In this document: piece after piece, positions 29,056 to 61,365 of the stretch
Layout of the letters: each line of letters begins with the position of its first letter
How positions within the stretch are numbered: position 1 is the first letter of the stretch
Assembly: GCA_030568195.1 (NCBI GenBank)
Contig: JAJLTO010000003.1
Span: 1,572,501-1,636,500 of the forward strand
From: Dipodascopsis uninucleata var. uninucleata
Taxonomy: Eukaryota; Ascomycota; Lipomycetes; Lipomycetales; Lipomycetaceae
DNA: 64,000 nt
Reading direction: 5' to 3'
Made by a program: the position numbers and the translations under genes
Notes under the pieces: generated by a model
Seen by the model: the letters and a program-made list of their open reading frames with translations, nothing else
Database searches by the model: none
What the model was told of the DNA's origin: nothing

Positions 29056-29127
29056 TCCGAAATAGTGTAATGGCTAGCACGGTCCGCTCTCACCGGGCAA
29101 ATCGGGGTTCAATTCCCCGTTTCGGAG
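29056..29127 (+). tRNA. tRNA-Glu (CTC)
   Basis: 72 bases fold as a tRNA. The acceptor stem TCCGAAA pairs with TTTCGGA, with G as discriminator. The D arm is TAGTGTAATGGCTAGCAC. The anticodon stem GTCCG/CGGGC encloses the loop CTCTCAC (anticodon CTC, reading GAG). The T arm is CGGGG-TTCAATT-CCCCG. No intron; CCA not encoded. Overall it closely resembles fungal tRNA-Glu. Confidence 0.96.
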
Positions 29128-57046: not shown

Positions 57047-58798
57047 ATGGATATCAGTAGTGGTGATAAGAAGAGGTATACTAGTAGTGTGAACGCTGGG
57101 ATTGGAGTTGCTGCAATAACTTGATATACAACTTTGATTTTCGCTAAATATACCAATAAGTAAAGAAATATGATTCTAACGTAATCACATAGAGTTGTTT
57201 TGGATAGAATATTAGGACGAAGAGGTCCTTTCTCTGATGAGGCGTATGTACCAGGATCGGACGTCCTTAATTTCCTTACAAGCATGAAGATACTGTGAGT
57301 GCATGCACATACTTGAATAATGAAATATTGGATTACTCTTGAATACTAACCAAAGTAATTATCGTTAATATGCACAGTGTTATGTAAGTAATAGCAGGAG
57401 ATCACTTAGGTGCATTCTTGCGTTCATCTGGCAAAGCAGCGTTGCAGCCTGTAAAGCAATTTCTAATTTGATCTACAGTGGTGCTGGTGGACTAGGATGT
57501 GAAATTCTTAAGAACCTGGCACTCTCTGGGTTTACAGATATCCATGTGATCGACATGGATACAATCGACATTTCTAATCTCAATCGCCAATTTCTTTTTC
57601 GGTCGGCTGATGTAGGCAAACCAAAAGCCGTCGTGGCTGCTGAGTTCATCATGAAGCGGGTCAAAGGTGTCAAGATTACTCCATTTTTTGGTAAAATACA
57701 GGACAAGGATGAAGAATATTACTCTCAGTTTGGGATTGTTATTTGTGGATTAGATAGTGTTGAAGCTAGACGTTGGATAAATGCTACCCTTGTGAACATG
57801 GTGGATATGAACAACCCGGAGAGTTTAAAACCTCTGATCGATGGTGGTACTGAAGGATTCAAAGGGCAAGCAAGAGTTATTTTACCTACAATTACATCTT
57901 GCTATGAATGTTCACTAGATATGCTTGGAAAGCAAGAGACATTTCCTATTTGTACTATTGCAAATACACCGCGACTCCCAGAGCATTGTATCGAATGGGC
58001 CAGCGTGTTGGAATGGCCACGAGTTTTTAAAGGTATACTTCATCATTATGCCCATGGACTTTGTGCTAATTAATGCTTCTATGTACAGATAAGATTTTAG
58101 ATAACGACGATCCAGAGCATATATCCTGGTTGTATAAAACCGCTCTGAAGCGTGCGTTAGAATTCAAGATCGAAGGCGTGACATATTCTCTTACCCAAGG
58201 TGTTACAAAAAATATTATACCTGCTATTGCTTCTACAAACGCAATCATCGCGGGTAAGCTAATAATTGTTTTACTTTATAAAATGGACTGTCTTCTCATA
58301 TAATCCATTATGATCTAGCATCGTGTTGTAACGAAGCTCTAAAGATTGCTACAACATGCAATCCATATTTGTCGAATTATATGATGTACACAGGAAACGA
58401 CTCTGTATATACATTTACTTTCGAGCACCAGAAGAAGGATGACTGTCCTGTATGTGGCAATCTTGCTAGCGAATTCTCTGCAAAACCGTCATGGACCCTG
58501 GAAGACTTGATTATGAAGCTCACTGAAACTCAAGAAATGTAAGTACATTGTGATATCTTTAGCACTGCAGTATTTTACAAGGTTTAACAATCTATTTTCC
58601 CTTATATACAGACGAATAAACAGACCATCTTTAAGAACAGCAGAGCGCAACTTATATCTTCAGTCGCCACCTCAACTAGAGGAGTCTACAAGACCAAATC
58701 TAACCAAATGCTTAAAGGATCTGATTACTAACGGCGAAGAGGTCTCAATAACTGATCCTGCTCTACCCTTCAGTATAAGACTGCGCATTCGATACTAA
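57047..58798 (+). CDS. UBA3: NEDD8-activating enzyme catalytic subunit UBA3
   Basis: Seven exons: 57047-57075, 57193-57294, 57378-57383, 57479-58032, 58089-58253, 58319-58538, 58612-58798; 1263 nt, in frame, 420 aa. The third exon is 6 nt and supplies Val45-Ile46 of [20 protein letters not shown], the nucleotide-binding strand. Then [20 protein letters not shown], the catalytic Cys204 in [19 protein letters not shown], and zinc-ligand pairs CYEC and CPVC. The C-terminal ubiquitin-fold part binds the E2. UBA3 with ULA1/APPBP1 adenylates NEDD8 and forms a thioester before passing it to UBC12 for cullin modification. Exons 1 and 2 are less certain than the rest (donor GTATAC after exon 1). Confidence 0.93.
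57378..57383 (+). other. UBA3: 6-nt microexon of UBA3
   Basis: TGTTAT, flanked by GCACAG on the left and GTAAGT on the right. The upstream intron (57295-57377) has GTGAGT and a TACTAAC branch site; the downstream intron (57384-57478) has GTAAGT and a CTACAG end. Splicing turns AAG ATA CT, TGTTAT and TGGTGCTGG into KILVIGAG, the invariant family motif. Skipping it also stays in frame but deletes Val-Ile from the beta strand. Confidence 0.85.
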
Positions 58799-59043: not shown

Positions 59044-61365
59044 CTACTGCTGTGTAATACCCGTCATAATGGGCGTCTGGATCATCGAAGGAATCTCATC
59101 AATTGCTGTTCGAATTATTTGCTTTCCATCAATGATACCAGTGGTAAGAATGAGAATTCGTCGACGTTCTGCTTCCTGTTGGGCGATATAACGTAAGGCC
59201 GCGACTTCAGTGAATGTAATACCTCCGAGGAAGAAAACGGCAGTTGTTTTCTTTTCTCGTCTAGTATATGAACTAGCTAACATTGTCTTAGCTTTAGCAG
59301 AGCGTTCGTCTCCCTTTTGAGTTTCTTCAAAACTATCACCACTAATATTACGTAGGATGTCTTCTACACCACGCCAGCCACTGGTTCCAGAACCTGCTAT
59401 TCTTGAACCAAGAGCTCGTCGCTGTATTATGCATTGCACTAATCTAACACTCAGAGGTGCATAACCTGAGTAGACATACGCAATATCGTCCGGATCTTGT
59501 TCATTTACATCATCAACGATAAGCTTGAAAGACCTTCTAAGATTCGAAAACTGAAATTGAGATGCTGCAACTGATGCCTTACCACGCTGATAGATAAGAT
59601 CCAGCTTTGCCAAAGCATGGAATGTCAAAATATGTTCGTAACCATATGAGTTTAAAATAAGTCTTTTAAAGAATGCATAGTCCTTTTCTTTCAGACCACC
59701 TTGTACGAGACATTCAAGAGCCAAGAGTCGCAGAGGTCCTTCAATTGGAATGCACTTGGCTATCATTTCTTCAATGGATTGATTAAGTACAGAAGGGTCT
59801 AGTCCAGAAGCCACCAAATTCTGTTGAACTTCAAGTGATCTGTTGAATAATTCTGTTTGCGTACGATTCATAATCTCCTCGGCAAGATTAGTGTGGAGTC
59901 TGAGACTTTGATGCTCAGCCTGTAGTCCACTTAACTTACTGACAAATTCTTTTATTTGTGAGACGGTCTTAGCTTGATGACGCTCTTCATAATCCTCGTT
60001 AAGTTTTCTAGCGACTTTATTAAGGGTAGGCCCTACAAGCGCAAAATTGACGTCTCTAATATTAGAATAGAGTAAATCGTTTGAATCAAGTATAATCTTC
60101 TTCAGCTTAGGGCCAGAGACAGTAGTCGTCGAAATCATCGAATTTGCGGACGAGGTATTTCCCAGCTTACTATTCTGGGCAGTAAGCACAGAGCTAGGGA
60201 TCTCTGCTTGTGAGTTCTTGATACCAAATACCTCATTAATGAGGCCTTCATAAGTAAGCTGAGTCATCATTGGAGTAATCATATCGCAGCCACGCTCAAT
60301 GATGATTAGCTGCTCAAAAATGTTGCTGTCAGTAGGATTATTAGAGCTTGACACAAGTCTTGAGGTTGACGATGATATGGATGCAGAATCTAAGCCACTA
60401 TTGCTGGCATGTTGTGCTGCAGTTGAATCAAGCCGAAGTCGAACTAGCATGTCTGATAGCTTCTTTGCGTTTGCACCTTTACCATATATCTTTGGAAACA
60501 AACCATACGATTTCTGTAGTGCATTGAGAGCCAGAGCAGAGTAGTTGACCGTAGTTGGTAGCCCACGTAAATATAAATCCTTATATCCAGCATCAGCGAG
60601 TTCTATACTAAAGAAGTCATCCTCTAGAGGGATAAATCCAAGATTCCATTCATTAATGGTGACATCACCGAGAACACCTTCTTCCTCAAATATTCGCTCC
60701 ACCGACAACATCCTACGCGGACAGAGAAATATATTGAAATCATAATCACTTTCCGAAACCTGAACTAGCCTCTTGATCTGGTCTGCAGAATAATCATCAG
60801 TACATAAACGCCATGAATCTCTGTCTTACACAAATACAACTTTCATTCATACCTGCTACAATCTTTGCATTTTTCAAGTTTCCCCGAATCAGATATATTA
60901 TACTTTTACGAACTGTATCTTTCTGAGGACCATCTTCGAGCCAGAATATATTGTCTACTCCATGTTCCTAAAATGAGTAAATCCCGCATGCCATAAGCAG
61001 TTGAGATTTGTTTGAGTTAGTCAATATGCCAGAACTTTGTATTCTTTTTTTTATCACTCAATACAAGCCATATCAGTCCCGCGAACTGGTCATGAAAAGA
61101 AATATAATAAATACCTGTAACACAGAAAATCTTGCAATATAACCTAACGGTGCAGACAGTGCTCTATCGAGAACAAGCGATTTCTTTCCGCGAACCTTTG
61201 CGACACAAGCATCATAGTTAGTTTTACCATTTCTGCTGTATCAACTTTACCCGCTACTTAACCTAGTTTAGACGCAATACGTACAGTTTCAAGAAGTGCT
61301 AGGAACGAAGACAATGCATCAGCCTTAATGGCTTTTGACTTGACAGGATTGCTTGACGATGTCAT
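59044..61365 (-). CDS. VPS33: Sec1/Munc18 protein VPS33 (HOPS/CORVET)
   Basis: Four exons: 61285-61365, 61115-61195, 60853-60967, 59044-60782; 2016 nt, in frame, 671 aa. Joined N terminus reads ALLET then VRGKKSLVLDRALSAPLGYI, typical Vps33. Later YDFNIFLCPRRMLSVERIFE, GVLGDVTINEWNLGFIPLE, IIIERGCDMITPMMTQLTYEG and the C-terminal VFFLGGITFTEVAALRYI are SM-family landmarks. Vps33 is the SNARE-binding core subunit of HOPS and CORVET at the vacuole and endosome. The first intron ends in AAG (GCAAAG) after an ACTAAC branch site. Length is near the yeast protein (691 aa). Convergent with UBA3. Confidence 0.95.

Follow-up and report, generated by a model that had tools for sequence, protein, structure and literature searches.

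A probable six-nucleotide microexon in the UBA3 gene of Dipodascopsis uninucleata and its apparent loss from many fungal protein models

Conserved microexons that are commonly missed by annotation have been described in plants, among them the 1-nt exons of APC11 and VPS55 (PMC8831610). Among the cytochrome P450 genes of the fungus Phanerochaete chrysosporium, predicted exons of 6 bp are the shortest reported (PMC1184071), and a 2024 paper described a microexon of Xlr2 in Trichoderma virens as the first fungal microexon with switch-like behavior (PMC11121469). Microexons of worms and of mouse cells require the U1 component PRP-40/PRPF40A (PMC8378409, PMC11463390). No paper on a UBA3 microexon was found in the open-licence literature; the accessible text of PMC5866513 contains a single mention of UBA3, as a candidate Transformer2-regulated event with no microexon, and the main text of PMC8831610 does not mention NEDD8.

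Here we describe a 6-nt sequence, TGTTAT, in the UBA3 gene of the lipomycete yeast Dipodascopsis uninucleata (Lipomycetaceae) that is very likely to be a real, constitutive microexon. It probably goes back to an ancestor shared by Lipomycetes and Pezizomycotina and seems often to have been dropped when the genes of relatives were annotated. It resembles the plant microexons in being a tiny coding exon of a core gene, with apparently long conservation, frequent absence from annotation, and a strong GTRAGT donor; the plant exons were found by RNA-seq, whereas the UBA3 case lies in Ascomycota and was deduced from one genome and protein models (PMC8831610). As in the P. chrysosporium P450 genes, a fungal 6-bp exon encoding two residues is found among small introns, but those genes form a basidiomycete family, for which the available part of the source does not describe a single position conserved across classes (PMC1184071). 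Like Xlr2, the locus would provide a functional microexon in an ascomycete; the Xlr2 exon, however, is glucose regulated and removes a DNA-binding domain, whereas the UBA3 exon looks constitutive (PMC11121469). As with recursive splicing exons, a donor would lie at or near the junction formed by the first splicing step, but the UBA3 exon would stay in the product and code for protein (PMC6224609).

The whole stretch of DNA that was analyzed (the window) spans 64 kb and was taken from contig C3 (positions 1572501 to 1636500) of a 16.2-Mb assembly of 25 contigs. The gene and its features, read from the sequence, are as follows.

57047 to 58798, + strand: UBA3, seven exons, 420 amino acids
57047..57075, + strand: exon 1, with the start codon, encoding MDISSGDKK followed by AG; N terminus the same as in the deposited protein P0001
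57193..57294, + strand: exon 2, with the 3' end ...AAG ATA CT
57295..57377, + strand: intron 2, 83 nt, GTGAGT...GCACAG, with CTAAC 28 nt from the 3' end
57378..57383, + strand: exon 3, the putative 6-nt microexon TGTTAT; Val-Ile present in P0001
57384..57478, + strand: intron 3, 95 nt, GTAAGT...CTACAG, with CTAAT 12 nt from the 3' end
57479..58032, + strand: exon 4, starting T GGT GCT GGT GGA (GAGG loop)
58089..58253, + strand: exon 5
58319..58538, + strand: exon 6
58612..58798, + strand: exon 7, including the stop codon

The encoded protein contains a ThiF/adenylation domain (PF00899, E = 3.2e-58) and a C-terminal E2_bind domain (PF08825, E = 9e-30), and its best PDB sequence matches are catalytic subunits of NEDD8-activating E1 enzymes (E1C), with chain 1yov_B aligned to residues 14 to 418 (E = 7.9e-140). 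These similarities support the assignment to UBA3 made in the initial annotation, whose coordinates for exons 2 and 4 also agree with our gene model. The deposited D. uninucleata protein (P0001, "hypothetical protein V1511DRAFT_494397") is identical to the seven-exon model at 419 of 420 residues. The exception is residue 233, which is Ile in the window and Val in the deposited protein, and the two assemblies thus probably come from different strains. Adjoining UBA3 on the opposite strand is a long open frame (59044-60825, - strand) that resembles VPS33 and may encode it. The only tRNA found within the window was a tRNA-Glu with a CTC anticodon (29056-29127, + strand).

Direct reading of the sequence bore out the initial description of TGTTAT as directly preceded by GCACAG and directly followed by GTAAGT. 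The six nucleotides code for the third base of a Leu codon, a whole Val codon, and the first two bases of an Ile codon. Their inclusion gives KILVIGAGGLG and restores a near-invariant motif (KIL-GAGG to KIL-VI-GAGG), as had been proposed; when they are skipped, CT is joined to T GGT and KILGAGG results, so that the reading frame is kept both ways. Retention of either flanking intron introduces stop codons. Both of these introns are in phase 2, with canonical ends and a branch-point-like CTAAY motif each; CTAAY occurs within 60 nt of the 3' end in five of the six UBA3 introns, and the sixth has TTAAC. At 6 nt, with an acceptor and a donor of its own, the segment falls within the usual definition of a microexon (an internal exon of up to about 30 nt). 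The 184-nt stretch between exons 2 and 4 holds 10 frame-keeping, AG/GT-bounded candidate exons of up to 30 nt when flanking introns of at least 30 nt are required on each side, and only the 6-nt candidate restores the motif. Among 20,000 dinucleotide-preserving shuffles of this stretch, a loose equivalent (a 6-nt AG/GT-bounded segment encoding a hydrophobic residue followed by [VI]-[VI]) appeared in 403 (2%), and in 7 the equivalent also had a consensus donor and an AG preceded by a pyrimidine. On its own, the shuffle result is no more than suggestive. Combined with the presence of Val-Ile in the deposited protein and with the conservation of these two residues, it makes use of the microexon very likely, and we infer that the transcript is spliced accordingly.

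The initial annotation had also expected gene finders to miss the exon. This does not hold for D. uninucleata, as Val-Ile is present in its deposited protein and the microexon was therefore not overlooked, but it seems to hold more widely. Three protein searches were made, and they together list 295 distinct proteins. Val-Ile, or a V/I variant of it, is present in 254 of these 295 UBA3 models, and exactly these two residues are missing from 35 (3 lipomycete yeasts and 32 Pezizomycotina), one of the searches being biased toward such models. In the first search, with full-length UBA3 as the query (5,782 matches, 120 listed), Val-Ile was absent from five of the nine named lipomycete models and from none of the 111 others among those listed (Fisher P = 6.6e-7). 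This test and the one given below treat related sequences as independent, and both P values are therefore only rough. Precisely Val-Ile is missing from the models of Lipomyces arxii, L. oligophaga, and Limtongia, in which KVF or KIF precedes GAGG, whereas the models of D. uninucleata, L. tetrasporus, D. tothii, and Kockiozyma contain Val-Ile. The models of L. kononenkoae and L. japonicus are shortened and read LYS-GAGG or GTS-GAGG; their initial sequence fits a translation running back through the acceptor before GAGG (xxAG|T). The Kockiozyma model (P0007) begins at MKILVI, so the upstream exon is absent from it. For Kockiozyma, L. tetrasporus, and D. tothii, the presence of Val-Ile in a protein model is uninformative as to whether a separate exon encodes it.

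In the second search, residues 1 to 70 of the L. oligophaga model without Val-Ile served as the query (4,193 matches, 120 listed). All 35 exact two-residue skips were among the 120 matches listed, a count that demonstrates presence rather than frequency because the query was biased toward such models by design. The lipomycete entries are P0004, P0006, and P0008; the 32 from Pezizomycotina carry the names of Penicillium, Aspergillus, Onygenales and relatives, Diaporthe, Coniosporium, Sporormia, Lophium, Neodothiora, Aplosporella, and Massarina. The sole difference between two Aspergillus tubingensis entries (P0131 and P0181) is Val-Ile, and the same is true of P0136 (A. terreus) and P0192. An otherwise identical A. 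tubingensis pair with and without the two residues points to differences in annotation. Other irregular models were also seen. The Candelina submexicana protein (P0194) reads KVL-AKNR-VI-GAGG, with four extra residues ahead of Val-Ile, as would result if the exon annotated around the microexon were too long. Those of A. tamarii (P0209) and A. caelatus (P0210) have KIL-VS-GAGG in place of KIL-VI-GAGG, perhaps through a wrongly placed 6-nt exon.

The residue ahead of the missing pair provided additional clues about the underlying gene structure. All 254 full models have Leu immediately before Val-Ile; of the 35 exact skips, 27 have Leu and 8 have Phe at this position (Fisher P = 2.2e-8, relatedness ignored). 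Phe is explained by a Leu codon, TTA or TTG, whose third base is lost with the missing piece and replaced by the final T or C of the Ile codon. Enumeration over codon choices indicated that shifting the donor, the acceptor, or both of a single GT/GC-AG intron cannot produce the Phe form, and that a missing 6-nt exon between two introns can give it. One intron with a tandem donor or acceptor was thus ruled out, under canonical sites, for the eight Phe-type models. These belong to L. arxii, L. oligophaga, Limtongia smithiae, Penicillium argentinense, Diaporthe ilicicola, Lophium mytilinum, Neodothiora populina, and Massarina eburnea, and they span Lipomycetes, Eurotiomycetes, Sordariomycetes, and Dothideomycetes according to the lineages looked up for all but Lipomyces, which we presume to belong to Lipomycetes. 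For the 27 Leu-type skips, two donors spaced 6 nt apart in a single intron would be another possible source, as would tandem acceptors for some codings.

Lipomycetes and Pezizomycotina both lie within the clade saccharomyceta, and a single ancestral microexon would be the simplest account of the pattern, with separate origins at these two positions the less likely alternative; conservation across these species is something we infer from the protein models. An origin older than Ascomycota was considered and found no support. A Coprinopsis query from which Val-Ile had been removed gave 959 matches, of which the 120 listed came nearly all, by name, from mushroom-forming fungi, and none of these 120 had a two-residue skip; well-annotated basidiomycete microexons would escape this test. 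The result may count against a microexon common to Dikarya, or the genes there may be well annotated or free of the introns. One protein from this search (P0287) has Cys-Ile at the Val-Ile position. In viral contigs, searches with P0006 and with an alignment (A2) gave 4 and 38 pattern matches, respectively, none of them a relative. In prokaryote contigs, the A2 query gave 231 confirmed relatives, and the 80 retained were all archaeal or bacterial by title, with best identities of 27 to 41%. These viral and prokaryote scans thus yielded no UBA3 of fungal origin. A tblastn search of plasmids with P0001 (211 records) yielded, in the five matches seen, only prokaryotic ThiF-like sequences of <60% identity. 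The UBA2-like SUMO E1 gene in this D. uninucleata genome (L008:1380-2440, contig C6) has several short introns, one of them shortly 5' of the GAGG loop, and no microexon was seen in it when it was read by eye.

Two alternatives concern the gene structure. D. uninucleata UBA3 could lack Val-Ile altogether through one 184-nt intron, with TGTTAT a chance match; the loose match in 403 of the 20,000 shuffles is compatible with this, but matches with consensus sites are rare (7 of 20,000), each flanking intron carries a branch-point-like motif, and Val-Ile occurs both in 254 of the 295 listed relatives and in the deposited D. uninucleata protein, which makes this account barely credible. The microexon could instead be real in D. 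uninucleata and not ancient, with the skips of Pezizomycotina caused otherwise, for example by tandem donors 6 nt apart. Such a history suits the 27 Leu-type skips, but it is excluded under canonical sites by the eight Phe-type skips, which are spread over four classes, and we regard it as unlikely.

The remaining alternatives attribute a use to skipping. The initial annotation had raised the idea of a switch for NEDD8 activation, in which skipped UBA3 without Val-Ile would not bind ATP and might sequester its partner, so that inclusion of the exon would set the level of activation. The frame is kept on skipping, many fungi are represented by a deposited skip form, and a glucose-dependent microexon switch is known in a fungal gene, Trichoderma Xlr2 (PMC11121469). 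However, Val-Ile is retained in most of the listed models, and the two A. tubingensis models of an otherwise identical protein point to differing annotation rather than regulation. The GAGG loop was also affected in predicted structures. AlphaFold2 places residues 42 to 46 (KILVI) of the full A. tubingensis protein in the first strand, ahead of GAGG, whereas in the skip form the same strand is predicted to absorb the Gly-Ala of the loop (KILGA), and the mean pLDDT of residues 41 to 50 falls from 90 to 81. The whole-model values, 76.4 for the full and 76.6 for the skip form, are unchanged, so a loss of folding is not indicated. The models agree with skipping spoiling the nucleotide loop, but such models are no measure of stability. 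The present analysis gave no sign of condition dependence. A regulated switch appears very improbable, and the proposal is unsupported. A variant, in which the exon is ancestral and its skipping is used, would have some UBA3 without Val-Ile keep its partner and NEDD8-E2 surfaces without being able to adenylate, thereby tuning neddylation; we consider this very improbable as well.

A constitutive microexon is thus the preferred reading, and its role is likely simply to be always included. Short introns of fungi are generally recognized as units. If the two short introns flanking TGTTAT are each recognized in this way (i.e., by intron definition), the microexon itself would need no splicing signal. 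Two complexes are unlikely to be bound at once to sites 6 nt apart, and the closeness of acceptor and donor therefore suggests that the two introns are probably removed stepwise. In the protein, the GxGxxG loop of E1 enzymes binds ATP; the microexon would complete the Leu codon and add Val-Ile, with which the first beta strand ends ahead of this nucleotide loop.

How old the exon appears to be, and how frequently public models omit it, are of more interest than the switch idea. If the conservation proposed here is right, one of the smallest coding exons would have persisted in a central-pathway enzyme from the ancestor shared by Lipomycetes and Pezizomycotina onward. Many public fungal UBA3 entries (35 of the 295 listed) would then lack two ATP-binding-strand residues solely on this account, with consequences for structure models, for the reconstruction of ancestral sequences, and for any study of NEDD8 activation in fungi that draws on such entries. 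The UBA3 microexon may serve as a simple benchmark for fungal gene predictors and as a case for how an intron-definition spliceosome handles splice sites that are 6 nt apart.
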